This document shows, one piece after another, positions 1,942 through 30,925 of a stretch of DNA of 38,498 nt. The position numbers and the translations under genes are program-made. Numbering within the stretch: the first letter of the stretch is position 1; every line of letters starts with the position of its first letter. A model generated the notes under the pieces. The model was not told where the DNA came from. It searched no databases and saw only the letters and a program-made list of their open reading frames with translations. Source of the stretch: Micrococcales bacterium (GTDB taxonomy: Bacteria; Actinomycetota; Actinomycetes; Actinomycetales; WQXJ01); assembly GCA_009784895.1 (NCBI GenBank), contig WQXJ01000020.1, positions 1 through 38,498 of the forward strand, given 5' to 3'.

Positions 1942-4758
1942 CTACCTGAGACCGTGGCGCAGGCGGCTGGCCTGCTCCTGGGTAGCAAATTGGCGGTAAC
2001 GCGGCAAGAACTTGTCCCAGTCAATGGCGTGGGCGTCGATCTCCGGGCCGTCAATGCAGGCGTGTTTACGCACCAGCCGGTCACCTTCGATTACGGGCAC
2101 CATACAGGCCCCGCACATGCCTGTGGCGTCAACCATAATCGAGTTCAGCGAGGCCACAGTCTTGACCTCAAAACCCCTGGTCAAGTCGGCCACCGCCCGC
2201 ATCATCACAGCCGGCCCAATGGCGATGACTTCGCCGATGCCGGCGCCTGAGCCAGTCTTGGCCGCCTTCAGTAGGTCTTCGAGTGGGTTGGTGACGAAAC
2301 CCTCGACCCCGAAGGAGCCGTCATTGGTGGTGTAGATGACCTCAAGCAGATCACCGAATTCGGCCCGTAGCGATTCGATTCGTTCTTCTGCTCCATCCCA
2401 GAACATCAGATCCTTGGTTCTGAAACCGGCGATTAGCACGCAGTGGTTACCCAGCCGCAGGTGTTCGCGCAAAATCGGGTAGACGGGAGGAAGACCCAGA
2501 CCACCGGCCACAAACACGACTCGGTCAGCGTCGTAGCGGTGCAGCTGCGACGGCTGGCCCAAGGGACCGGCCACCCCAGCCGCCGTTTCGCCCACCGCCA
2601 AGGCGTTGATCTGGTGCGAAGAGGTGCCAACCGCCTGGACCACCAAAGTGATGGTGCCAGCCTGGGCATCCCAATCGGCCAGGGTCAGCGGTATCAGCTC
2701 GCCGACTTCTGCCACCGGCAGCAGCCGGACAAACTGTCCAGCCTGGGCTGCCGCCGCGATCACCGGCGCGTGAATGACCAGCTCCTCGATGCCCTCAGAC
2801 AAATGGGTTTTGGCCAGGACAACCGCCCTGGCGGCACCGGTCTGGGAGTAGCGCCCGGCACTGGCCACCATGGCCTTGACCTGATCCAGCTCCAACTCCG
2901 GTAGGGCCTGGATCTCGCGGGCGGCACTTTGACCATCGCCGGCCGCCAAAATGGCGGTCGAACCGCCCCGCGCGGCATCGCCACCGGTGTAGACACCGGG
3001 AACTGAGGTTTCCTGCGACCCGTCGGCTTCCAGTTCGATTGAACCCCAGCTGGACACGGCCAAGCGCGGTTCAGAGTCCTTGATGATGGGGTTGGCTGAG
3101 TTACCTAAGGCCATGATCACCAGGTCAGTTGGCATATAGGTGGTCTCACCTGTGGCCACTGGCCGCCGCCGGCCAGAATCATCGGGTTCACCCAGCTCCA
3201 TGATGCCAACCGTGGCCCCGGTCACAAACGAAGTCGCCTCGTCGCCATGGAACTCAGTCGGCGCGCGCAGCGTCGCCACTATGACGCCTTCTTCGATGGC
3301 GTGTTCAAGTTCCTCGACCCTGGCCGGCATCTCGGCTTTGGTGCGGCGGTAGACAATCTGAACGTGGCCGCCCAGCCGGCGGGCGGTGCGGGCCGCATCC
3401 ATAGCGGTGTTGCCACCGCCAATCACCATGATCTCTTTACCGGCTACGGCCGGCAAAGGTGTCTCGGTGTCATCGCTGGCCGCGCCCATCAAATTGACCC
3501 GGGTCAAGAACTCATTGGCAGACATCACGCCAACCAGGTGTTCGCCCGGCACGTTCATGAACTTGGGCAGCCCGGCGCCGGAACCAACAAAGATCTTCCA
3601 AAAACCGGCCTGGGCCAATTGCTCCAGGGTGGCGGTCTTGCCCACCACAAAGTTGGTCACAAACCGCCCACCGAGCAGGCGGATCTTCTCAACGACATCG
3701 TCGATCAGGGCGTTGGGCAAACGGAACTCGGGGATGCCGTAGCGCAGCACGCCGCCCAGTTCGTGGAAGGCCTCGAATACCGTCACCGGGAAACCGTCGC
3801 GGGCCAGTAGGTAGGCCGCGATCAAACCGGATGGACCCGAACCGACAATGCCGACAGGCGGTTTGGTGGCGACCTGCCACGGGTCGGAGACACCGGCGAA
3901 ACGCTCGGCGTTGGCGTTGGGGTGGACCTGCTTGTCCCATTCAGCTAAGAACCATTCGACCTGACCAATGGTCATGGCGGTCTTATGCAAGCAAACGCCC
4001 TGGCACTGTAGTTCTTGCGGGCAAACCCGGCCGGTCACATTGGGCAGCGGATTGGCCTGCTCAAGCATTTTGACCGCCTGGTCAAACCGGCCCTCGCCAA
4101 TTAGCCCAAACATCTCCGGAATGTCAATTTTGACCGGGCAACCCCCCACCGGGTCGCGTTTGCCGGTAATCAGCTCGCCAATGACGCAGTTCTTTTCAGC
4201 GCATTGTTTGTCCCGCAGCGCCTCTAGCCACACGAACAGCTCGCATTCACGCAGCGTGAAACCTAGGGCCTGGTAACCCAAGTAGCCGGTGTTGACCAGG
4301 GATGAATCCTTGACCCGTTCTTCCGGTGGGCGGATGTAGGGCGGAATGGCGTTATTGGCCGGCCACTGCTCGCTTAGTCCATCGAACATGGGGTAGCGGT
4401 CAGATAGGTGGCTATCCAAACCCCGGATAAAGGCCCGTTTCTTGCCCACCGGCAAATTCCACAAGAACCGCAGCATGACGGTCGCGACATCGCCGCCAGC
4501 CAGCAGCATGTCCCAGATCCGCAAGGTCAGTTCCTTGGAAATGTCGCGCTGCTTGAACTCCCAAGCCACCGCCGCCATGCCCTGCTCCAGGAAGACATTG
4601 CGGAAAGCCCGCGGCTCAACGGCCAGAGCCTGTTCCAGCACCGTCACCTGGTTGCGGAATTGGCGCACCTGCGGGCTGGCACCGAGCTCGTCCAGCGCCG
4701 CCCGGTCAGCCTCAAGCTCGGCCCGGGCTGTTTCCCAGCGTTGAATCTGGTCGCTCAC
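1942..4758 (-). CDS. Fused NfnB-NfnA NADPH:ferredoxin oxidoreductase with extra N-terminal domain
   Basis: This 938-residue flavoprotein combines two Nfn subunits. Residues 1 to about 175 are a helical region not found in ordinary NfnB/GltD. Next come cysteines for two 4Fe-4S clusters (CAEKNC near 186-191, GGCPVKIDIPE near 205, CPQELQCQGVC near 246-256), the FAD site GIVGSGPSG (303-311) and the second dinucleotide site VIGGGNTAMDAA (445-456). From about 640 there is a ferredoxin-reductase-like NfnA half ending in a 2Fe-2S motif (GMCGAC near 880, a further Cys near 901). Nfn enzymes bifurcate electrons between NADPH, NADH and ferredoxin. I chose GTG 4758 because GGAG lies 8 nt upstream and the start forms a GTGA overlap with the PFOR stop. 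It should pass PFOR-derived electrons to NADP. A ferredoxin-dependent sulfide dehydrogenase or GltA-like role is less likely. Confidence 0.85.
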   Translation of the reverse strand: MSDQIQRWETARAELEADRAALDELGASPQVRQFRNQVTVLEQALAVEPRAFRNVFLEQGMAAVAWEFKQRDISKELTLRIWDMLLAGGDVATVMLRFLWNLPVGKKRAFIRGLDSHLSDRYPMFDGLSEQWPANNAIPPYIRPPEERVKDSSLVNTGYLGYQALGFTLRECELFVWLEALRDKQCAEKNCVIGELITGKRDPVGGCPVKIDIPEMFGLIGEGRFDQAVKMLEQANPLPNVTGRVCPQELQCQGVCLHKTAMTIGQVEWFLAEWDKQVHPNANAERFAGVSDPWQVATKPPVGIVGSGPSGLIAAYLLARDGFPVTVFEAFHELGGVLRYGIPEFRLPNALIDDVVEKIRLLGGRFVTNFVVGKTATLEQLAQAGFWKIFVGSGAGLPKFMNVPGEHLVGVMSANEFLTRVNLMGAASDDTETPLPAVAGKEIMVIGGGNTAMDAARTARRLGGHVQIVYRRTKAEMPARVEELEHAIEEGVIVATLRAPTEFHGDEATSFVTGATVGIMELGEPDDSGRRRPVATGETTYMPTDLVIMALGNSANPIIKDSEPRLAVSSWGSIELEADGSQETSVPGVYTGGDAARGGSTAILAAGDGQSAAREIQALPELELDQVKAMVASAGRYSQTGAARAVVLAKTHLSEGIEELVIHAPVIAAAAQAGQFVRLLPVAEVGELIPLTLADWDAQAGTITLVVQAVGTSSHQINALAVGETAAGVAGPLGQPSQLHRYDADRVVFVAGGLGLPPVYPILREHLRLGNHCVLIAGFRTKDLMFWDGAEERIESLRAEFGDLLEVIYTTNDGSFGVEGFVTNPLEDLLKAAKTGSGAGIGEVIAIGPAVMMRAVADLTRGFEVKTVASLNSIMVDATGMCGACMVPVIEGDRLVRKHACIDGPEIDAHAIDWDKFLPRYRQFATQEQASRLRHGLR

Positions 4759-7700
4759 TGGATGATCTCCGCATCGCAATTGGCTTTGACCCGCTTGATA
4801 CGCCGCGCCATTTCTGCGTCGATCACCACCGAGTCGATTGCGCCTTCAATCATTCGGCCCACTATTTGCGGTGCACCGTCGACCAAAATGGTGGTCTTCT
4901 CGAATAGCGCTGGCAGCTCCTGGTAGCAGGTGGCGCAGTCGTTGCATTTGGGCAGGTCAGCCGGATCGAGCCAAACCGGGTAGTCGCATGGGCTGGTCCC
5001 GTCCGATGCCGGTGCCTCAGCGCCCGGGCCAGGGCCAGCTGGTGCGGCTTGGGCGGGGCTGCCAACCCCGATCGAGGCGGCTAGCCCAGTAGTTGGAGCG
5101 GCCGAGGAAGTGGCCAGGTCAGCCATGGCCGCCGCGATCTGGTCGAGCGACTGCTCGCGCGCGTCCAAGGCCTCGCTGTACTGGGCCTCAAGGGCTTTGA
5201 CATGGGCCAGGTGCTCGGCGTTGGCCAGGGCTTGGTCGCGTCCGGCCAGCAGCCGCAGCGTCAACCAGAAGCGCTTACGTTCCTCAACCAACTCGACCAT
5301 GGCTTCCGAAACCGCCACTTTGATCAGCCGTTGGCGCTTGTCGGTCGAGTAGATGAAGGCCACTTTGCCCAAGCGCTGGTCCGGCGGCAGTTCGATGAAT
5401 TCGGCCAGCGGAATGGCCTGTTCTTCGACCTCAGGGCGCAGTTTGGAGAACTGTTTGGCGAAGCGGATCTCACCTAAGGCGAAATCGGCCGGAGTCAAAG
5501 GCGCTTCGAGTAGCTGGGTCTTGCCCTCAGCATCGACATGCTGGATGTTGTGGCTGGCCCAGATCTGGTCCATAGCCGGGTTGCCGTCCAGGGACAACCG
5601 CTCCGGCAACGACTCGCCACGGGCCGGGTCGTGCACAAACATTGGCGCCATCCGCGATTCGACCGCGATCCGGCCGCGCTCGGCTGAGAGTTCCTCGCTG
5701 AAGCCGTTCTCCGTACCGCACGGGGTGAAGAGCTGGATCACTCCGGCGCCGCCTTGGTAGGCCAACAAACCGGCCGCGGCGGCAAAGAAGTGGCTGTGCA
5801 GAGCCGAACAAGTGGCGGCGACATAAACCGAAGGATGGAACAGGGCGATCAGCCCAAGCTCCTTGCGGGCCTCACGTTTGCCAGCATGAGCCTTGCCATA
5901 ACGAGCCAGGTCGGCATCTTGACCGGTGTAGCTAGCGGTCGAGGCCTGGCCACCAGTGTTGGAGTAACCACCGGTGTCCAGCACCACCGTCTTGATCGGA
6001 ACACCGTTAGCCAAGACCCGCGACAAGGCACCAAAGCCAATGTCATAGGCGGCACCGTCACCACTCATTGACACCAAGGCTGGCATCAGGGCCGCCTCGG
6101 CCGGGGTGAAGTCACGCCAATCCAATGTCGCCAGGGCGGCGGCCAGGTCCGGGGTGTAGGCGTCATCTAGCTCCGCCGCAGCCAGGCGGGTGGCCCTGAC
6201 CTCACCGACCAATTGGCTGGCCAAACCCTCGTAGATGCCGGCCGCCAGCGGCTGGGCGTCTTGGAACAGCGAATTCACCCACGGGTCGGGGTAGGGGTTG
6301 AACGGCATGGTCGAGGCGTAAACCGAAGAACAGCCGGTCGAATTGGCGTAGACCACCGGAGCCGGGCCGGCACCTGTGGGGCCGGCCTCGTAGTTGAACA
6401 AACACCGATCCAAGGTTTCGATCAGATTGGCGATGCGCTCAGCCCGCCCGGCTTGGTCAGCCTCCAGCCCATCAAGCTTGGCCTTGAGCTGATCAATCAG
6501 CTCGGTCAGCTTGGCCACATGCTGGCCGCGTTGGGCCTTGCCTTGGGCGTGGCAAATGGTTGAAATCAGGTGAATCGGTGTGACCTCACCACAACCACGG
6601 CAAGCCCCGTGGCCGCCGGTCATCGAATAGTAGGCCGTGTGGTCCAACAGCAGCCGCTTGAAGTCGCCCTCTTCCAGAGCCCCGGCCGTGAAGCGCTGCG
6701 GCGTATTGGGCAGGGCCGTCATCGCTTCGAAGCGAGCCTGGATCAAGTCAAGGATCGAGCCATCCTGGTCCACAGTGTGCAACACCCCTGGGCCACAAAC
6801 GTCAACGCATTGCATACAGCCGGTGCACTTCCAAGGATCGACTACCACCGAAAGCAGGCCACCGCTGCCGGCCCGCTCCTTCTCCATGGCATCGAAGAAC
6901 GGCCTGGTCCGGGCGACCGGGAAGGCGGCCAAGTGTTCGACCAGAGCATCGATGTGCTTGGCGATAAGTTGATCATCACCCAAGGCGCTGGCCGCCGGAC
7001 GCAAAATCTCAGGCCAAGTGCCGGCATCGGGCGTCTCCAGCAGCAGACGGCGCGCCTCCGCGCCCCAGGCGGGTACCAGGCCATCAAGCTTGGTCCTTTG
7101 GGCCGGCGGCGGCGCGATCGCGGCGATGGCGCTGGTTAGCAGGTCATGCAGCTCATGAACCGTGTTAGGGATGGCCGTATCAGGGCAAGCAATGGCGCAT
7201 TCGAGGCAGCCGGTACAGCCTTCAGGCGTGAATAGCGGCACCTCGCGGCGGAAAATGCCTTTATCTTTGCCGGCGCCAGTGGCCGGTGGCATAAACAACC
7301 CGGTGCCAGGAAGTACCGGGGTTTCGGCAATGGTGCCCTCTTTGAAAGGCGTGCCAACAGCAGTGTTGAAGTAGTCCGGGTCAAACAAGGCCTGAGGGCG
7401 CACCGCCGTGGCGGACAGAGACATGGCCGCACTCAAGGCCACAGTGCGCTGTTGGCGGCGCTCAGTGGCGGATTCAGCCGTCACCAGCTCGTCGTAGTTG
7501 ACCCGCTCGGTGGCCTCGCTGGCCGCTTCGATTACGGCCATATTGGAGTCGACAATGGCCTTGCCTTTGCGGCCAAACTTGTGGTCAATCTCGTGGCGAA
7601 CTTTGTCCATGACCTTGTCCAACGAACCGGCCTGTTCCAGAACCGCATCGACGTGACCAGCAATGGCACCAACGAAGGCGATGCCCATCATGCGGGTTTG

Positions 7701-9764
7701 CAGGGCCGGATCCGGCGCCAATCGCCTGGCCACCTTGAAGGCGTCCACGACGTAGAAGTGGATATTGCGTTCCTTGATGGTGCGCCGGGCGTATTCCGGC
7801 AGCGACGCCCAAACCTCGGCTGGGCTTTGCGATGCCTGCAGGATGAAGGTGCCGTCCCTGACTAGACCCTTCAGCGGGTTGGTGTGGATAAACACCTGAT
7901 GGTCGGGCGAGACCACCACTTCAACATCTTCGAGCTCGTTGTTGGTCAAAAAGACCGGCTCCGGCGAAAGCGTGATGTAGTAGTTGGTGGCGGCACCCGA
8001 TTTCTCTGACCCGTATTTAGGGGCCGACTTAGAGCGCATACCCAGCACACCAGAGAGCACATCGGTCAGCAACTTGCCGGTTGCAATGGTGCCGTAGCCG
8101 CCAACCGAATGGAAGCGGATACGCAAGGCCTCGGGTGGCAGAATCGGTGGGTTTTCGCCAGTGGTTAGGGCCATGGCGGCTGTTTCTGGATAGGCCTGGC
8201 GCATTTGCTCTTGGATCTCAGCCTGCAAGCCGGTCGGGTTCTCGGAGAAGAACTGTGAACCGAGGTAGATCAGCGGCGCCAGGTCGTCATTGGTCATGGC
8301 CTCAAAAGCAGCCACAATGTGGCGCGGTTGAACATCATGACCGCCCAAACCAAAAATGCCGGTGGTTAGCTGGGGTGCGGCCGCGATTGGCGGAATGCCT
8401 GGGTAGCGCGCCTGGCTGGCCTGGTGGTTGGAAGAGGCTTTGAACAGGGCCTGGGAGACCAGGCGGGTTAGGGCCGTGTCGTCGGAACGCTCCAACACCA
8501 TGACGGCCTTGGCCCCCTTGACGGCCTCGACCAGCTCGGCCTCGGGGAAGGGCTGAAGCAGCTTGACCGAAACCACCCCGACCTTCTGGCCTTGGCCGCG
8601 CAGATAGGTCACCACGGCCCGGATGTCCTCAGTGATCGAACCCATGGCCACCATGATGTAGTCGGCATCTTCACAGTCATAGGTCATAACCGGGGCATAG
8701 CTACGGCCAGTCATACCGTTGTATTCAGCCATGGCAGCGCGCACCAGGCTGGGCACGGCGGCGGCGAAGTGGGTGCGGTGGTCGGCCGAGCCAGCCTGGA
8801 AGTCGGGCTGGTTTTGGACCGGGCCGGTTAGGCCAGGGTTGTTCGGATCAACCAGGGCCGGCACCAATTGCCGCGTGCCCTTGGTCCAGGCGTTGACCCA
8901 CTGGCGGCGGAAGGGCTGGCGCAACTCTTTAGGCACCCAAGGTAGAGCTTTGGCGATAAGGGCCGCATCGGCATCGGCCTCAATGGCTTCGCCGTTGGCC
9001 GCCAGGTAACCGCGCAAGGCCTCCAGGTCCGATGGCGGGAAGTCGCCGGCGTGACGGTCCAACCAGGCGTCCAAGGCCCAGGCGCGGCCCTTAGCGCCAA
9101 ACAGCACCTCTTGGGCCTTGGTGGGGCAGGCGATGCGGGAGGCCGGGTCGCCCAAATACTCCTTCAACAAGGCCGGTTCAGGCAGCCGGGCTTCGCACAT
9201 GACGTGGCTGGTGGCGAAGCCGTCCATGGCGTTGGCCACGGGAATCAGCGACAAGGCGGAAGTCTTGTAGGCGATCGCGGCCAGGTCAGCCGTCTCTTCT
9301 GGGTCGGAGCCAAACAAGATGGTGTAGCCGGCCGGCAGTAAGGCGTAGACATCGTCATGTCCAGCCATGACGTTAAGGGAGTGTTTTGACACCACCCGGG
9401 CGGCCACCTGCAGCACAAAGCCGCCAATGCGCTTGCCAGCCGTGACGTAATGCGATTCCAGAGCGTACAAAATGCCCTGGCTGGAAGAGGCGTTGGAAAT
9501 GTAGTTCCCACCGGTCAGGGCCGCGCCCAAGGCGCCGGACTGAGCTGAATGCTCACCTTCAGCCTCGACGAAGAAGGCGTGTTTGCCCCAGACGTTGAGC
9601 TGTCCCTCCGCTCTGGCCGCCTCGAAGGTCTCCGAAATCTCGGTCGAAGGTGTGATGGGGTAGCCAATCACACCACCGCAAACATGGGCCATGACATGAC
9701 TGATAGCGCCATTGCCGTTGATTACCTGTCGCGTACCTGGATATTTAGGCTGGTTGGATGTCAC
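4755..9764 (-). CDS. nifJ: Pyruvate:ferredoxin oxidoreductase, extended single-chain form
   Basis: This 1669-residue PFOR should convert pyruvate and CoA to acetyl-CoA, CO2 and reduced ferredoxin. In order: the pyrimidine-binding domain with YPITPSTE (35-42), a transketolase-C-like domain (about 355-490), a gamma domain (IRFHSVGGYG, 548-557), a two-cluster ferredoxin domain (Cys850/853/856/860 and Cys980/983/986/990), then the TPP domain with ACRGCGE (1054-1060), TGCSS (1143-1147), GDGAAYDIG (1235-1243) and YSNTGGQAS. Usual length is about 1170-1200. The excess includes a charged coiled-coil insert at about 1075-1120, inside the proximal-cluster ligand region, and a linker plus extra Cys-rich domain at 1590-1669 (Cys1607/1610/1613 and 1663). 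The start is GTG with GGAAG upstream. It forms an operon with the Nfn fusion. Another 2-oxoacid is possible as substrate. Confidence 0.9.
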   Translation of the reverse strand: MTSNQPKYPGTRQVINGNGAISHVMAHVCGGVIGYPITPSTEISETFEAARAEGQLNVWGKHAFFVEAEGEHSAQSGALGAALTGGNYISNASSSQGILYALESHYVTAGKRIGGFVLQVAARVVSKHSLNVMAGHDDVYALLPAGYTILFGSDPEETADLAAIAYKTSALSLIPVANAMDGFATSHVMCEARLPEPALLKEYLGDPASRIACPTKAQEVLFGAKGRAWALDAWLDRHAGDFPPSDLEALRGYLAANGEAIEADADAALIAKALPWVPKELRQPFRRQWVNAWTKGTRQLVPALVDPNNPGLTGPVQNQPDFQAGSADHRTHFAAAVPSLVRAAMAEYNGMTGRSYAPVMTYDCEDADYIMVAMGSITEDIRAVVTYLRGQGQKVGVVSVKLLQPFPEAELVEAVKGAKAVMVLERSDDTALTRLVSQALFKASSNHQASQARYPGIPPIAAAPQLTTGIFGLGGHDVQPRHIVAAFEAMTNDDLAPLIYLGSQFFSENPTGLQAEIQEQMRQAYPETAAMALTTGENPPILPPEALRIRFHSVGGYGTIATGKLLTDVLSGVLGMRSKSAPKYGSEKSGAATNYYITLSPEPVFLTNNELEDVEVVVSPDHQVFIHTNPLKGLVRDGTFILQASQSPAEVWASLPEYARRTIKERNIHFYVVDAFKVARRLAPDPALQTRMMGIAFVGAIAGHVDAVLEQAGSLDKVMDKVRHEIDHKFGRKGKAIVDSNMAVIEAASEATERVNYDELVTAESATERRQQRTVALSAAMSLSATAVRPQALFDPDYFNTAVGTPFKEGTIAETPVLPGTGLFMPPATGAGKDKGIFRREVPLFTPEGCTGCLECAIACPDTAIPNTVHELHDLLTSAIAAIAPPPAQRTKLDGLVPAWGAEARRLLLETPDAGTWPEILRPAASALGDDQLIAKHIDALVEHLAAFPVARTRPFFDAMEKERAGSGGLLSVVVDPWKCTGCMQCVDVCGPGVLHTVDQDGSILDLIQARFEAMTALPNTPQRFTAGALEEGDFKRLLLDHTAYYSMTGGHGACRGCGEVTPIHLISTICHAQGKAQRGQHVAKLTELIDQLKAKLDGLEADQAGRAERIANLIETLDRCLFNYEAGPTGAGPAPVVYANSTGCSSVYASTMPFNPYPDPWVNSLFQDAQPLAAGIYEGLASQLVGEVRATRLAAAELDDAYTPDLAAALATLDWRDFTPAEAALMPALVSMSGDGAAYDIGFGALSRVLANGVPIKTVVLDTGGYSNTGGQASTASYTGQDADLARYGKAHAGKREARKELGLIALFHPSVYVAATCSALHSHFFAAAAGLLAYQGGAGVIQLFTPCGTENGFSEELSAERGRIAVESRMAPMFVHDPARGESLPERLSLDGNPAMDQIWASHNIQHVDAEGKTQLLEAPLTPADFALGEIRFAKQFSKLRPEVEEQAIPLAEFIELPPDQRLGKVAFIYSTDKRQRLIKVAVSEAMVELVEERKRFWLTLRLLAGRDQALANAEHLAHVKALEAQYSEALDAREQSLDQIAAAMADLATSSAAPTTGLAASIGVGSPAQAAPAGPGPGAEAPASDGTSPCDYPVWLDPADLPKCNDCATCYQELPALFEKTTILVDGAPQIVGRMIEGAIDSVVIDAEMARRIKRVKANCDAEIIQ

Positions 9765-13432: not shown

Positions 13433-13501
13433 TCCCTGCCTGCGGCCGGGCCAAGGCCGTGGCTCCCGAGCGTGTCAGTGCCGCCCATTAGGCTTGAATT
13501 C

Positions 13502-15004
13502 ATGGTTGAAGGTCTGCTCCAGCAAGCTGAGCGGGTGAGGGTCGAGTCGACGCTTGGCCTTGATTCAGTCGCCCAGACTGCACAGGGCCAATACTTCACC
13601 CCCGGCGGGGCTGCCGCATTGATCGCCGATCTGCCAAAGCTGCCACGGGACTCTCTGTTGAAGGTGCTAGATCCCGGCGCAGGGTCAGGCATTTTGACCG
13701 CCGCAGTGGTGGATCGCGTCTGCCGGGAACGTTATGGCGGCAAGGTTGAGGTGACGGCTGTGGAGTGTGACCAGTCGTTGCTGCCCGCCTTGCAGCGCAC
13801 CGCCGAAATGTGCGAGCAGTGGGGCCTGGATCACCACACCAAAGTCACAGTCAAGGTCGTGTGCGGCGATGTGGTTTTGCTGCAAACAGGTTTGGACGCC
13901 GAGCTTGGCTTGGACTTTGACCTGGTGGTGATGAACCCGCCGTACAAGAAACTCGGTTCGTCATCCTGGCAACGCAAGGCTCTAGAGCCCCTGGGCTGGG
14001 AATCCCCGAACCTGTACTCGGCTTTCCTAGCACTCGGGGTCGACTCCATGCGCGATGGCGGTCAACTGGTTGCCATCACACCGCGCTCATTCTTCAACGG
14101 CCCTTATTTCAGTCAGTTCCGCAAGCGTCTGCTACGCCAGGTGACGTTCAACCGGCTTCATACCTATGAATCGCGTTCCACGGTCTTTGCCGACACCGGC
14201 GTGCTTCAGGAAAACGTGGCCTTCTCTGCCACCAAGGGTGGGTTACACGGCGATGTCGTTATCACCTCCTCTCATGGCCACATCGACGAAATCACCTCCC
14301 GAGTGATCACTTACGGCGAGCTGGTTTTGCCGGACGATCCGGAGGAGTTCATTCGGATCACCACAGATGATGCGGACGATGACGCGGTGCACAGGTTCGC
14401 CTCCCTACCGGCGTCGCTGTTGGCCCTGGATCTGAAAGTGTCAACTGGCAAGGTGGTGGACTTCCGCGCCAGAGACAACCTTCACGATTCCCCACAGCCG
14501 GGCAGCCTTCCGCTGGTTTATCCGGGGAATCTGCGCAATGGCCAGGTCGAGTGGCCACGACAGATCGGCAAAGCCCAAGCGTTCTGCCTACTTGGTGACC
14601 ACGACCGCAAAGCACTGTTGCCATACGGCTACTACGTGCTGGTGAAGCGCTTCTCCTCCAAAGAGGAACGCCGCCGTGTCGTCGCAGCGATATGGGATCC
14701 AACTCGCTACCAAGCCAAGGAGGTGGCTTTTGAAAACCACCTCAATGTCTTCCACGCGGGCGGTGTCGGGCTGGACCGCGAGCTAGCTTGGGGATTGTGT
14801 CTCTGGCTGAACTCCTCGGTCGTGGATCGCTACTTCCGCACTTTCTCCGGCCACACCCAGGTCAATGCCACTGATCTGCGGTCGTTGAGCTACCCCGACG
14901 AAGCAACCCTGCGCCGCCTCGGACGCACCGTCGACTTCCTTCCTGCCCAAGATGATCTGGACCAGCTGATCGAAGACCACGCATGGAGGCAAGTGGCCGC
15001 ATGA
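13502..15004 (+). CDS. PstI/BsuBI-type adenine-N6 DNA methyltransferase
   Basis: This roughly 500-residue enzyme should methylate adenine in the target of its partner nuclease, probably CTGCAG. It has GQYFTPGGAAALI at the N-terminus, SAM-binding motif I DPGAGSGIL (about 57-65) and the catalytic NPPY motif (145-148) in the gamma-type order, followed by a target-recognition half. ATG 13502 is my preferred start. A GTG at 13472 in the same frame is possible, and neither has a strong ribosome site. Its TGA overlaps the ATG of the endonuclease gene (ATGA), the classic R-M pair arrangement. The sequence looks somewhat less GC-rich than its neighbours, as expected for an acquired module. Confidence 0.88.
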   Translation: MVEGLLQQAERVRVESTLGLDSVAQTAQGQYFTPGGAAALIADLPKLPRDSLLKVLDPGAGSGILTAAVVDRVCRERYGGKVEVTAVECDQSLLPALQRTAEMCEQWGLDHHTKVTVKVVCGDVVLLQTGLDAELGLDFDLVVMNPPYKKLGSSSWQRKALEPLGWESPNLYSAFLALGVDSMRDGGQLVAITPRSFFNGPYFSQFRKRLLRQVTFNRLHTYESRSTVFADTGVLQENVAFSATKGGLHGDVVITSSHGHIDEITSRVITYGELVLPDDPEEFIRITTDDADDDAVHRFASLPASLLALDLKVSTGKVVDFRARDNLHDSPQPGSLPLVYPGNLRNGQVEWPRQIGKAQAFCLLGDHDRKALLPYGYYVLVKRFSSKEERRRVVAAIWDPTRYQAKEVAFENHLNVFHAGGVGLDRELAWGLCLWLNSSVVDRYFRTFSGHTQVNATDLRSLSYPDEATLRRLGRTVDFLPAQDDLDQLIEDHAWRQVAA

Positions 15005-15960
15005 ACGACGATGCCGCGGCTCTGGTCGACGAGGCTCGCATTGCTCTTGAAAACCTCGGTTTTGACGCCGAGCGGTCTAATGAACGTTCGGCTCTGGTGC
15101 TGCTGTCCCTATTGCGGCTACGACCCGGCAAACCCTGGTCAGACCTGGAGTCTCCAATGCTGGGGACCAGAGCGATTATGGACTGGATTAGGGATCAGTA
15201 CGGCGTAGAGTACGCGCCGAACAGCCGTGAGACTATCCGTCGGTTCACTTTGCACCAGTTCGTTGACGCTGGGCTGGTCGAGGAGAATCCTGACCATCCG
15301 AGCCGTCCCATCAACTCTCCCAAGTGGTGCTACCGAATTCGTGCCGAGGCGCTTGGTCTCCTCCGGGCCTACGAAACTGACCACTTCGATGGATTGTTGA
15401 CGGACTATCTGAAGACCTCACCGGGCTTGGTGGCGCAGTACGCCTCGCAGCGGGAGATGACCCGCATACCGGTGGTGCTGCCGGATGGAAGCCCGGTGAC
15501 GTTGAGCCCTGGCGGACAGAACGAACTCATCAAGCAGATGATCGACGACTTCTGCGCTTACTACGCTCCCGGCGGTCGGGTGCTGTATGTCGGCGACGCG
15601 GACGAGAAATGGGCGGTCTTTCACGAAAACGAACTCACCGCTCTTGGCGTGGAGGTAAACAAGCACGGCAAAATGCCCGACCTTGTGGTTCACCTGCCAG
15701 AAAGGAACTGGCTCCTTCTGCTTGAGGCGGCTGCCAGCCATGGCCCTGTCGATGGTCAACGGCACTCTGAGTTGTTGTCGATGTTCGGCAGCTCGACAGC
15801 TGGCCTGGTCTACGTCTCCTGCTTCCCCTCCCGCGCCATCATGCGCAAGTATCTGACGCAGATCGCTTGGGAAACGGAGGTCTGGTGCGCCGACGACCCA
15901 ACTCACCTCATCCACTTCAACGGTGAACGCTTCCTCGGCCCCTACGAGGAAGAACAATGA
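15001..15960 (+). CDS. BsuBI/PstI-family type II restriction endonuclease
   Basis: This 319-residue nuclease is expected to cleave unmethylated CTGCAG. The C-terminal third carries the family signature: MPDLVVH (225-231), then WLLLLEAAASHGPVD (237-251), which supplies a PD-(D/E)XK-like core with Asp227 and Glu242, then RKYLTQIAWETEVW (282-295) and the ending HLIHFNGERFLGPYE. The N-terminal half should hold DNA recognition and a winged-helix-like region. ATG 15001 overlaps the methylase stop and has GGAGG 11 nt upstream. A second ATG at 14983 is less likely. Intact CTGCAG sites occur in the window (1131, 11092, 12550), so the host depends on the methylase for protection. Confidence 0.9.
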   Translation: MNDDAAALVDEARIALENLGFDAERSNERSALVLLSLLRLRPGKPWSDLESPMLGTRAIMDWIRDQYGVEYAPNSRETIRRFTLHQFVDAGLVEENPDHPSRPINSPKWCYRIRAEALGLLRAYETDHFDGLLTDYLKTSPGLVAQYASQREMTRIPVVLPDGSPVTLSPGGQNELIKQMIDDFCAYYAPGGRVLYVGDADEKWAVFHENELTALGVEVNKHGKMPDLVVHLPERNWLLLLEAAASHGPVDGQRHSELLSMFGSSTAGLVYVSCFPSRAIMRKYLTQIAWETEVWCADDPTHLIHFNGERFLGPYEEEQ

Positions 15961-28418: not shown

Positions 28419-28504
28419 CGCGAGACCGAGCTTTCGCAGACTGTTGTACAAGCCCGGAACCATAGTTGTACAAGTTATGCCAAAGCTCAATCTGGCGAGA
28501 TCGG
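28419..28504. repeat. Facing pair of REP-like repeats with two TTGTACAA palindromes
   Basis: A minus-strand copy (28419-28442) and a plus-strand copy (28474-28504) of the element seen at 16.9 kb form the outer arms. Inside, TTGTACAA occurs at 28444-28451 and 28466-28473, 22 bp apart. The whole folds into an imperfect stem of more than 30 bp around a 14-nt loop. It lies between convergent genes and covers the amrS stop, so it can act as a two-way terminator. It has no clear T-run. Confidence 0.6.
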
Positions 28505-29551
28505 GGCTGGTCGTTGGGCGGTGACTGACCAAAGGCCGGGAGTGGCGGCGGCGCAAGCTGGGCAGCGACCGATCGGGTCGAGCCGGTTGGCCAACAACCC
28601 AAAACCACTGCGCACTATCAGGTCCTGACCGCAGCTGGAACAGGCAGTGGTCGACCCATCAGGGTCGACCACATTGCCGGTGTAGACATGATTCATACCG
28701 GCGTCCAGGGCCATTTGTCTGGCCCGGCGCAGCGTCGAGGTGGGTGTGCGTTTCCTGTCTCGCATCCGGTGGGCCGGGTGGAAGGCAGTGAAATGCAGCG
28801 GCACATCTGGGCCGAGTTCGCCGGCGACCCATTCCACCAACCGCCCTACCTCGGTCTCGGAATCGTTTAGGCCCGGGACCAGCAGAGTGGTGATCTCAAC
28901 CCAAACATCGGTCTGACGCACCAGGTAAACCAGAGTGTCTTGGACCACCTCAAGCCGCCCACCGGTGACCTTGCGGTAGAAAGAGGCGTCAAGCGACTTC
29001 AGGTCGACGTTGACCGCGTCCATGGCGCTGAAGAAATCGGCTCGCGCTTCGGCGCAGATGTAGCCGGCCGTCACCGCCACGTTGACCAGTCCACGCTGGC
29101 GGCAGGCCTGGGCTGTGTCGATGGCGTATTCAGCGAAGATAATCGGATCGTTGTAGGTGTAGGCCACACCAGCCGCCCCGGCCTGCCGCGCCATCGTGGC
29201 AATCTGGCCCGGTGTGGCCGAGCTGGACAAGGCCGCTACATCGCGCGCTGTCGAAGTGGACCAGTTTTGGCAGAACTTGCAGGCCAGGTTGCATCCGGCC
29301 GTGCCAAATGACAGCACCGTCGAGCCGGGCAACACGTGGTAAAGAGGTTTCTTCTCGATCGGATCAAGGGCAAATCCGGTCGACCGGCCGTAGGTCGCCA
29401 AAACCATGTGACCGTCATGGTTTTGCCGCACAAAACAAAAACCGTGTTGACCTGGACGCAGGTGGCAATGCCTGGGGCACAAATCGCAGGCGACGCGTCC
29501 GTCATCGGCCAAATGCCAGTACCCGGCCTCAACCCCACCCGGTCTGGTCAC
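28487..29551 (-). CDS. amrS: AmmeMemoRadiSam system radical SAM enzyme
   Basis: This 354-residue radical SAM protein resembles the pyruvate formate-lyase activase group. The cluster-binding motif is CNLACKFC (Cys87, 91, 94). An N-terminal Cys set (CDLCPRHC, then GFC) and a C-terminal zinc-ribbon-like pair (CSSCG, CPAC) are also present, as in the AmrS family. GTG 29551 is chosen because it overlaps the AMMECR1 gene stop (GTGA). The frame upstream belongs to that gene. It should cleave SAM to a 5'-deoxyadenosyl radical, but the substrate is unknown. It is always found with AMMECR1 and MEMO proteins, as here. Confidence 0.9.
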   Translation of the reverse strand: MTRPGGVEAGYWHLADDGRVACDLCPRHCHLRPGQHGFCFVRQNHDGHMVLATYGRSTGFALDPIEKKPLYHVLPGSTVLSFGTAGCNLACKFCQNWSTSTARDVAALSSSATPGQIATMARQAGAAGVAYTYNDPIIFAEYAIDTAQACRQRGLVNVAVTAGYICAEARADFFSAMDAVNVDLKSLDASFYRKVTGGRLEVVQDTLVYLVRQTDVWVEITTLLVPGLNDSETEVGRLVEWVAGELGPDVPLHFTAFHPAHRMRDRKRTPTSTLRRARQMALDAGMNHVYTGNVVDPDGSTTACSSCGQDLIVRSGFGLLANRLDPIGRCPACAAATPGLWSVTAQRPAPISPD

Positions 29552-30096
29552 TCGTGGAAGGCCTCGACCTTGTAGCGCTGGATTTCGACATCCTGCCAGT
29601 GGTCGGGCGGCAGGCCGGCTTTGGCCATTAGGTGGGTGACAAATTCCTCTGGGGTAGGCAGCTGATCCCAGACCTGCGGCAAGAAGGTCGCCCGGTGCCA
29701 ACCTGAGCGCAGAATAACGCCGTCAATTCCCGGCCTGAGCTGCTCTAACGCATCCGTCCTGGAGGTGAAGCTAACCGGTTCAGGGGCGGATAGGACCGAC
29801 ACCTCGACCTGGACCCGCTCGAATTCGGTGGCGCTAAGCGGGCGGAAGCGCGGGTCGTGGAAGGCCGCAGCGACGGCGTTTTCGCGGACGTCCTGTCCCA
29901 GCGGACGGTGAGCCTCAAGCGAACCGATGCAACCGCGCAGATCGCCGTCAAGGTTCAACGTGACAAAGCTGGCGCCTTTTTGCTTGAGCCAACTTGGGCT
30001 GGGCGGCGGGCCGGTGGGCCGGCCCAAGGCCCGGCCGATGGCGTCCCTCGCCACCGCCACTAGAACCTCGCCTGTGTTAGGGGGCGGGTCAGGCAT
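29548..30096 (-). CDS. amrA: AMMECR1-family protein of the AmmeMemoRadiSam system
   Basis: This 182-residue protein has the conserved AMMECR1 motif LRGCIGS (53-59), whose Cys is nearly invariant, plus DPRFRPL (81-87) and the ending VEIQRYKVEAF. The family spans bacteria, archaea and humans without an established activity. Its start overlaps the MEMO-like gene by 8 nt, and its stop overlaps the radical SAM start, so all three are translated together. The conserved Cys suggests it may carry or receive a group made by AmrS (inference). Confidence 0.92.
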   Translation of the reverse strand: MPDPPPNTGEVLVAVARDAIGRALGRPTGPPPSPSWLKQKGASFVTLNLDGDLRGCIGSLEAHRPLGQDVRENAVAAAFHDPRFRPLSATEFERVQVEVSVLSAPEPVSFTSRTDALEQLRPGIDGVILRSGWHRATFLPQVWDQLPTPEEFVTHLMAKAGLPPDHWQDVEIQRYKVEAFHE

Positions 30097-30925
30097 GGGC
30101 CACCCCCGCCGTCAGCGGGTCGAAGTCAGGCAACTCGAGGTTGAGCGGGTCGAAGCGAACGCAGGCGTAACCGACAACCTGGCGTTTGTCTCCGGCAGTG
30201 TCACCGGAGTTGGCCGCGCCCACCAAGGTGGCTTGGAGGTCGTGGCGCTGGGCCGCCAGCAGTAGCCCGTTGACCGGACGGGCGCCGCAGGCCAGTTCCG
30301 GCGGCAGGGTTGGGTCAAGCCTAAGAATGCGGTCAATAGTCATCTGGTCGAAACGCTGAGCCCGCTCATAGCGGTGATAATGCGACAAGTCCGAGCTGAC
30401 CACGACCAGAGTTTCCGGTCCACCCCAGACCTCGTCCAGCACGGCTGCCACCACTTCAGGTCCGGCGCTGCCTACAGCCAGGGGCAAAACCTTGGCATCT
30501 GGCAAGGTGCGCTGAATAAAGGGTAGATGTACCTCAAGCGAGTGCTCCTGGGCGTGGACCTCGGGCAGGGTCTCTACCAACGGCAGCCCGGTGACCGCGG
30601 CCACACCTTCGACCCAGACCTCGACATCGCCAAGCGGAGTAGCCAGGGCGTCTACACCTGGCAGCCCGAGCCCAGGGCAGGCGACTCGGTGGCAGGGGCC
30701 CAGTAGCACAACCTGTTTGATCGGTGGCTGGGCGGCGAAAAGGCAGGCGTAGCCAAGCGCAGCGATGGCACCTGAGTATTGATAACCAGCGTGCGGCACA
30801 ATCATCGCTTTTGGGGCCGCGCCAGGGTCCCTAGCGTGGGCCAACAGCGTGTCAACCTGCTCGGCCAACCGCATCGGTGAGTTGGGATAGAACAGACCGG
30901 CCACGGCGGCGGGACGAACCGACAT
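30089..30925 (-). CDS. amrB: MEMO1-family protein of the AmmeMemoRadiSam system
   Basis: This 278-residue protein is homologous to human MEMO1, which resembles metal-dependent aromatic-ring dioxygenases and binds iron or copper. The ligands expected from MEMO1 are kept: His45 in VPHAGYQYSG, His79 in LGPCHR and Cys213 in LACGARPVNG. The segments EHSLEVHLPF (127-136) and VSSDLSHYH are also typical. A very good ribosome site (GGGAGGT) precedes the ATG. It is the first gene of the three-gene amr operon, divergent from the catabolic cluster that starts at 31.0 kb. Confidence 0.92.
   Translation of the reverse strand: MSVRPAAVAGLFYPNSPMRLAEQVDTLLAHARDPGAAPKAMIVPHAGYQYSGAIAALGYACLFAAQPPIKQVVLLGPCHRVACPGLGLPGVDALATPLGDVEVWVEGVAAVTGLPLVETLPEVHAQEHSLEVHLPFIQRTLPDAKVLPLAVGSAGPEVVAAVLDEVWGGPETLVVVSSDLSHYHRYERAQRFDQMTIDRILRLDPTLPPELACGARPVNGLLLAAQRHDLQATLVGAANSGDTAGDKRQVVGYACVRFDPLNLELPDFDPLTAGVAHA

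Follow-up and report, generated by a model that had tools for sequence, protein, structure and literature searches.

Do a single-chain, enlarged NADH-dependent ferredoxin:NADP+ oxidoreductase (Nfn) and the pyruvate:ferredoxin oxidoreductase (PFOR) encoded directly ahead of it act together as one enzyme? The question is raised by positions 1942-4758 of a 38,498-nucleotide stretch from a Micrococcales bacterium (contig WQXJ01000020.1 of assembly GCA_009784895.1), the whole of which is referred to here as the window. A reading made from the letters alone (the sequence-only reading) proposed that both Nfn subunits are joined there in one chain, behind a new helical domain that could dock onto the tail of PFOR. 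As judged by sequence comparison, the parts list and the pairing of the two genes are established, and a functional pairing of PFOR and Nfn is strongly supported. We hold at even balance the reading that the two genes form a single, dedicated unit: an electron-bifurcating (in this case confurcating) bacterial pyruvate:NADP+ oxidoreductase, in which a ferredoxin domain tethered to PFOR would feed Nfn directly. The features concerned are as follows.

4755..9764, minus strand: long divergent PFOR of 1669 amino acids, with the usual thiamine pyrophosphate (TPP) motifs and three sets of cluster ligands (Pfam and alignment; under the TIGR02176 cut-off)
4758..4985, minus strand: C-terminal single [4Fe-4S] ferredoxin-like domain of PFOR, with C1607, C1610, C1613 and C1663 (conservation, a Fer4_15 match below cut-off, a structure model and PDB folds)
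4755..4758, minus strand: GTGA, the 4-nt overlap of the PFOR stop codon (TGA, 4757..4755) and the Nfn start codon (GTG, 4758..4756)
1942..4758, minus strand: single-chain (Pattern C) Nfn of 938 amino acids with a GTG start (NF009415 above cut-off end to end)
4213..4758, minus strand: N-terminal helical domain of Nfn, residues ~1-182 (outside any Pfam family and with no significant fold match in the PDB; conserved across an alignment of 69 sequences)
4210..4212, minus strand: codon of Asp183, found where NfnL/GltA-type proteins have their first distal-cluster Cys
3904..4212, minus strand: Fer4_20-like two-cluster region, with D183, C186, C191 and C256 (presumed distal) and C207, C246, C252 and E268 (presumed proximal), from Pfam and ligand alignment, the distal/proximal split being presumed from dihydropyrimidine dehydrogenase
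2905..3861, minus strand: NfnL FAD/NADP(H) domain, with motifs GSGPSG, GGGNTAMD and YRRxxxEMPAR (Pyr_redox_2 and alignment)
1945..2841, minus strand: NfnS part, an FAD/NAD(H) domain and a [2Fe-2S] site with D877, C882, C885 and C901 (DHODB_Fe-S_bind above cut-off, NAD_binding_1 slightly under cut-off)

Pairing of the Nfn and PFOR genes

A scan of GTDB genomes with the N-terminal domain of Nfn (alignment A1, 18 rows) found 274 encoded relatives, of which the best 80 were kept; the locus counts cover these best 80 of 274. In 79 of these 80, PFOR is the gene directly upstream, in the same orientation. The overlap that the sequence-only reading took as a sign of matched production is real, and it is not a local accident, since an overlap of exactly 4 nt recurs in 49 of the 79 scan loci that are linked to PFOR and in 16 of 19 loci from the window's own order. 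Where the overlap is absent, a script picked the start codon, and some odd gaps (-118, -175, -184) are probably due to wrong starts. The same-order set derives from 22 other genomes with this Nfn, of which 20 were fetched (G442 and G451 being omitted) and 19 had upstream DNA, one locus (L021) beginning inside the gene; PFOR is directly upstream in 19 of these 19. Nine loci are common to both sets; when these are counted a single time, linkage holds for 89 of 90 distinct loci. The unlinked exception is an ectosymbiont, Candidatus Thiosymbion (L092), whose Nfn is on contig C14 of genome G585 and whose tail-bearing PFOR is on C1. The pair is thus kept in this organism even though its genes have come apart. 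In another locus (L063) PFOR and Nfn lie in one reading frame, and the read-through aligned poorly with the tail rows (7-25% identity to the first row).

The holders belong to two phyla. Titles among the best 80 of 274 include Cellulomonas, Actinotalea, Propionibacteriaceae, Bifidobacteriaceae, Rhodopseudomonas, Rhodopila, Rhodoplanes, Blastochloris, Aliiruegeria, Accumulibacter, Propionivibrio, Rhodoferax, Chromatiaceae and others. The Nfn family itself is rare. NF009415, the curated family that models the whole Nfn chain, is found at E (expectation value) <= 1e-150 in 1 of 296 genomes across the window's phylum, that one being the window's own, and in 23 of 297 genomes of the window's order, its own included. 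The PFOR tail (alignment A3, 53 rows; E <= 1e-8) is found in 23 of the 297, and they are the identical 23 genomes. In the order of the Thiosymbion genome, Nfn is present in 14 of 210 genomes and the tail in 12, all within the 14; canonical PFOR scores above cut-off in 158 of the 210 and any PFOR match at E <= 1e-60 occurs in 184. Over both orders the tail is in 35 of 507 genomes, Nfn in 37 and both in 35. In any one genome these searches scored a handful of top candidates, 2-3 with the Nfn and TIGR02176 models and as many as 19-27 with the tail, and the absences are accordingly not absolute. Nfn and the tail are on separate contigs in G451, G494, G585, G781 and G782. Adjacency and reciprocal co-occurrence across two phyla thus bear out the tight tie to PFOR that had been suspected from the letters, and chance or merely local linkage is rejected on the same grounds.

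The PFOR and its ferredoxin-like tail

The POR_N, PFOR_II and POR domains of the window PFOR score above their Pfam cut-offs, and its YPITPS, AAR, GDG and YSNTGG motifs and cluster cysteines align with those of three canonical PFORs. The chain nevertheless falls far short of the TIGR02176 equivalog cut-off (390 versus 911.35 bits; three relatives score 381-421). Judged by its motifs, it may work like a PFOR though it is not filed under TIGR02176. Compared with 6cin it carries insertions, and ~285 residues follow position 1384 where 6cin has ~62.

The last 76 residues form the tail, with a CxxCxxC...C arrangement in which all four cysteines are kept in 90 of 90 rows. Row counts are out of 91 for Nfn and 90 for PFOR, with the nine scan loci that are also same-order loci removed beforehand and partial genes counted as gaps. 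Fer4_15 matches residues 10-76 of the tail without reaching its cut-off (E 0.0024; 19.0 versus 22.4 bits). A structure model of the tail has a mean predicted local distance difference test score (pLDDT) of 94.5 and a predicted template modelling score (pTM) of 0.81, and its two nearest PDB folds are ferredoxins, 1iqz (probability 0.98, TM 0.60, E 0.16) and 1siz (probability 0.92, TM 0.52, E 0.20). On this model the tail looks like a ferredoxin domain, which fits direct electron transfer. Three of three canonical PFORs from the order of the Thiosymbion genome end without such a tail. The 15 Pfam families that were listed in the window PFOR chain include no flavodoxin or P450-reductase-type FAD domain of the kind expected of a Euglena-type enzyme. 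The two types of PFOR can lie close together: on contig C62 of genome G612 a canonical PFOR (3406-6924) shares the contig with the tail of a paired PFOR (14418-14642) and its Nfn (from 14829).

The single-chain Nfn and its electron port

The Nfn gene runs from 4758 to 1942 on the minus strand; the sequence-only reading had the coordinates right and left the strand unstated, the plus-strand frame over 1942-4758 being stop-rich. An alternative earlier in-frame start is TTG at 4779. Fer4_20, Pyr_redox_2 and DHODB_Fe-S_bind all score above their Pfam cut-offs, which confirms that both Nfn subunits are fused in one chain and gives the order as L then S. The best solved relatives include the L and S chains of Pyrococcus furiosus NfnI (5jca), which match residues 211-624 and 654-936 (numbering of the TTG-started frame).

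The fusion as such is not new. A fused form called Pattern C, known from Actinobacteria, Alpha- and Gammaproteobacteria, is ~200 residues longer, has its S part at the C terminus and is described as uncharacterised in its properties (Liang 2019, PMC6405883). The window chain agrees in each respect, being a single chain with ~200 extra residues and a C-terminal NfnS part. This part has the Asp-ligated [2Fe-2S] motif and aligns as an S domain with an FAD and NAD(H) site; the L domain has its sites too, E268 among them, with Asp rather than Cys at the position of the presumed first distal ligand. NF009415 (PRK12779) matches the GTG-started chain with 1555.5 bits against a cut-off of 1519, over profile positions 7-943 of 944, and is presumably the same grouping as Pattern C. 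Its NCBIfam name, "glutamate synthase/polyprenylphenol hydroxylase", was considered as a function and rejected, the S part having the Nfn [2Fe-2S] Asp-Cys3 motif and aligning with NfnS. PFOR is also named among nfn gene neighbours in the legend to Figure 2 of PMC6405883. Since a fused Nfn and a PFOR beside some nfn gene are both known already, "new" is too strong a word for this chain.

The family differs in the cluster motif at the start of the L part. The comparison NfnL/GltA-type proteins (loci L124-L127, two adjoining an NfnS gene, one Pattern B fusion and one stand-alone GltA from Haliovirga with no NfnS beside it) have RC-x2-C-x4-C-x3-C. The seven family rows aligned with them have RD-x2-C-x4-C, then a longer loop and C. 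Cys begins the motif in 4 of 4 comparison rows and Asp, at position 183 of the window chain, in 91 of 91 family rows. The selection patterns of the scan included [LI]RDKQC, which contains the Asp position; among relatives not chosen by a pattern containing Asp, the count is 50 of 50 (19 order rows and 31 scan rows). By analogy with dihydropyrimidine dehydrogenase we take this position to be that of the first ligand of the distal cluster, which in P. furiosus NfnL is presumably Cys. Asp183 is accordingly presumed, on that analogy, to be a distal-cluster ligand at the ferredoxin port. Ferredoxin electrons pass through the distal cluster of NfnL, and E126 of the P. furiosus protein is a proximal [4Fe-4S] ligand (PMC9503767). 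E268 falls on E126, counted from the match ends, and is Glu in 90 of the 90 rows having a residue. The [2Fe-2S] ligands are likewise kept in every row having a residue.

The N-terminal helical domain

The sequence-only reading described the N-terminal part as helical and of unknown family. The AlphaFold2 model is indeed almost entirely helix (mean pLDDT 79.1, pTM 0.64; weak around model residues 41-56). The second half of the description holds for Pfam, which gives no match above cut-off in the first ~180 residues, the sole one listed being a chance-level MerR (E 0.14); it does not hold for NF009415, which covers the whole chain. The idea of a new domain family is rejected in that form, Pattern C being in print already. 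Because NF009415 models the chain end to end, the N-terminal part is a standard piece of a known family.

Among 69 rows there are 33 invariant columns in residues 4-192, a range that takes in the first cluster ligands. A Foldseek search of the domain model against the PDB returned 15 matches at E <= 10 and none at E <= 0.001 (best E 4.3). In a VIA fold comparison 22 of 85 chains reached Z >= 2 and none Z >= 5, the best being Z 4.5 over 43 residues with a root mean square deviation of 5.1. This absence of a fold match does not establish that the modelled fold is new. A tblastn search found no match to the domain in PLSDB plasmids at E 0.001. The domain is fused to Nfn in all 80 examined loci, as far as the contigs extend. 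Together with the loop between C191 and C207, it may help to hold PFOR at Nfn.

Co-inheritance of the two proteins

Identity matrices of PFOR and Nfn correlate with r = 0.94 over 73 pairs, and in trees of 64 pairs most groups agree among those listed in the output, to which the comparison was confined. The correlation and the agreement of the trees are compatible with joint inheritance. The branches of the window pair are long (0.48 and 0.50) and the counted ligands are still kept. Two bins titled Proteobacteria and Actinomycetes (L061 and L082) carry a near-identical gene pair (branches 0.02-0.03) and the same sample label, BP9; one of the two is therefore probably misassigned. An exploratory test of co-variation by domain (50 cells, uncorrected and without a species-tree control) gave its highest value, 0.46, for the first 45 residues of the N-terminal domain with the two-cluster region of PFOR.

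Proposed mechanism and alternatives

In the proposed module, pyruvate would be oxidised at the TPP of PFOR and the electrons would travel along the three clusters of this enzyme to its tethered ferredoxin domain. This domain, rather than free ferredoxin, would be the donor to the Asp-modified distal cluster of Nfn, from which electrons would continue through the Glu-ligated proximal cluster to the L-FAD. Electrons from NADH would join them there by way of the S-FAD and the [2Fe-2S] cluster, and NADP+ would be reduced. The net reaction would be pyruvate + CoA + NADH + 2 NADP+ -> acetyl-CoA + CO2 + NAD+ + 2 NADPH. We infer the contact between PFOR and Nfn, the channelling, the docking by the N-terminal domain and the direction. 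The fuller proposal, in which PFOR evolved a tethered ferredoxin, Nfn evolved an Asp-ligated distal cluster and a helical docking domain, and the resulting ferredoxin-independent pyruvate-to-NADPH bifurcating complex lets electrons bypass the cell's ferredoxin pool, is put forward tentatively, at somewhat less than even likelihood.

Several observations weigh against a dedicated module. Pyruvate as the substrate is deduced from motifs in a protein that scores 390 bits where the pyruvate model TIGR02176 demands 911, and the E values of the ferredoxin folds matched by the tail model are no better than 0.16 and 0.20. Two of the 14 Nfn genomes in the order of the Thiosymbion genome (G613 and G632) gave no tail match; their Nfn match lacks the N-terminal part, and the missing tail is likely to come from broken assembly. 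The two trees place L078/L089 and L103 differently, and linked genes that are simply inherited together would also be expected to show correlated distances. The test by domain did not favour the N-terminal domain with the tail (0.20, against the maximum of 0.46), nor is there any simple charge pairing, the tail and the N-terminal core being mostly acidic with median net charges of -4 and -3. Finally, an operon and co-inheritance can reflect a shared pathway that runs through free ferredoxin.

This last point is the core of a less probable alternative, in which the two enzymes do no more than share a pathway: free ferredoxin is reduced by PFOR and reoxidised by Nfn, the operon serves to keep their amounts in balance and the tail is an additional cluster without partner specificity. 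Canonical PFOR and Nfn do operate through free ferredoxin, such a pool is likely in the window organism given its second ferredoxin-linked, indolepyruvate-oxidoreductase-like enzyme, and the genes are unlinked in the Thiosymbion genome. However, partnership of this kind leaves unexplained why the ferredoxin-like tail occurred only with this Nfn and why the electron port of Nfn is changed in every one of the 91 sequences. It is very unlikely, in turn, that the altered distal cluster marks an Nfn that no longer bifurcates and simply reduces NADP+ or NAD+ in linkage with PFOR. There are precedents, since some Nfn homologues do not bifurcate (PMC9973337) and alteration of one Fe-S ligand of Nfn uncouples its branches (PMC9503767), though the ligand there is proximal and not distal. 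Yet 87-91 of 91 rows retain the counted ligands of the proximal and [2Fe-2S] clusters, the remainder being gaps, the flavin and NADP motifs are present in the seven family rows aligned, and a plain reductase would have no need of the S half.

Even if the dedicated module is accepted, the sequence does not tell in which direction it runs. PFOR and Nfn can each work either way, and the module could run backwards as an NADPH-driven pyruvate synthase, in which 2 NADPH and NAD+ would be bifurcated to power reductive carboxylation of acetyl-CoA in acetate-assimilating bacteria. Many holders are in the genera Rhodopseudomonas, Rhodopila and Blastochloris or in Chromatiaceae, which are purple phototrophs, or are titled Accumulibacter or Propionivibrio, and operation in reverse is quite possible in phototrophs that use acetate. 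As the general role of the module we consider it improbable. The nearest relatives of the window pair are Actinomycetota, a group in which an oxidative role in fermentation seems likelier, and no match to pyruvate formate-lyase (PFL) or to [FeFe]-hydrogenase was found in the window genome (2.36 Mb in 111 contigs, 96.5% complete).

Relation to known enzymes

Pattern C Nfn, of the Mobiluncus curtisii type, and NF009415 share with the window protein the single chain, the ~200 extra residues, the C-terminal NfnS and the occurrence in Actinobacteria and Proteobacteria; the accessible text of PMC6405883 ties the extra residues neither to PFOR nor to a change of distal ligand. The M. curtisii Nfn stands at the base of the Nfn tree of Poudel 2018 (PMC6085437). 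The two-subunit enzymes (NfnAB/NfnSL, with P. furiosus NfnI, 5jca) have the same L and S domains, cofactor sites, proximal Glu and [2Fe-2S] Asp ligand. They differ in their separate subunits, in having no N-terminal domain, in using free ferredoxin and presumably in a Cys as first distal ligand, as seen in the four other relatives. Pattern B proteins, such as AadN of Rhodopseudomonas palustris and the Nfn of Clostridium autoethanogenum, are also fused, but their order is S then L (seen in B. finegoldii) and the N-terminal helical domain is absent. AadN is tied to benzoyl-CoA reductase (PMC9973337).

On the PFOR side, the canonical enzyme (TIGR02176; 6cin, 1b0p) has the same TPP and catalytic motifs and the same three [4Fe-4S] ligand sets, whereas the window PFOR is ~440-500 amino acids longer, with its insertions and an extra ferredoxin-like tail. 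A related proposal comes from Propionibacterium, where a complex of PFOR with Nfn-like proteins was postulated from co-transcription and a PFOR knockout that cripples growth (PMC7650540). There, however, two separate genes flank PFOR and the proposed reaction is quinol oxidation, whereas here a single-chain Nfn accompanies a PFOR with a tail. A search of open-licence literature, main texts only, turned up no mention of either the PFOR tail or the Asp ligand.

In Euglena, pyruvate:NADP+ oxidoreductase is a PFOR fused to a cytochrome P450 reductase-like domain. The overall conversion of pyruvate to NADPH with no free ferredoxin involved would be shared, but here the partner is a separate Nfn chain.

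Genome and neighbouring genes

The window genome has two matches of the 2-oxoacid dehydrogenase E2 type. It also encodes a second 2-oxoacid:ferredoxin oxidoreductase (L132; positions 2-2049 of contig C7 of G000), apparently of the IorA/IorB (indolepyruvate) type and adjoining a phenylacetate-CoA ligase-like gene; these names were assigned by eye except for a PF01558 match. In view of these genes, pyruvate perhaps has other outlets than the PFOR-Nfn pair, and the organism probably has free ferredoxin.

Elsewhere in the window, consecutive and overlapping Memo-like, AMMECR1 and radical SAM genes occupy 28487-30925 on the minus strand, a trio for which we know of no established function. A restriction-modification pair, an Eco57I-type methylase and a BsuBI/PstI restriction endonuclease, is at 13472-15960 on the plus strand. 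A PIN-domain gene at 166-836 on the minus strand is preceded by a small antitoxin-like gene with no Pfam match, and the two are probably a toxin-antitoxin pair.

Implications

The pairing supplies a concrete partner and reaction for Pattern C Nfn, which was called uncharacterised (PMC6405883). A nearly invariant pairing in two phyla, a built-in ferredoxin domain and an invariant Asp together make a testable mechanism. A bifurcating enzyme whose ferredoxin port has naturally changed from Cys to Asp, in association with a tethered donor, would offer a handle on how ligation and choice of partner govern bifurcation. If electrons are channelled, Actinomycetota, purple phototroph genera and relatives of Accumulibacter would possess a self-contained pyruvate-to-NADPH enzyme, which would be useful for metabolic models and for understanding NADPH supply.

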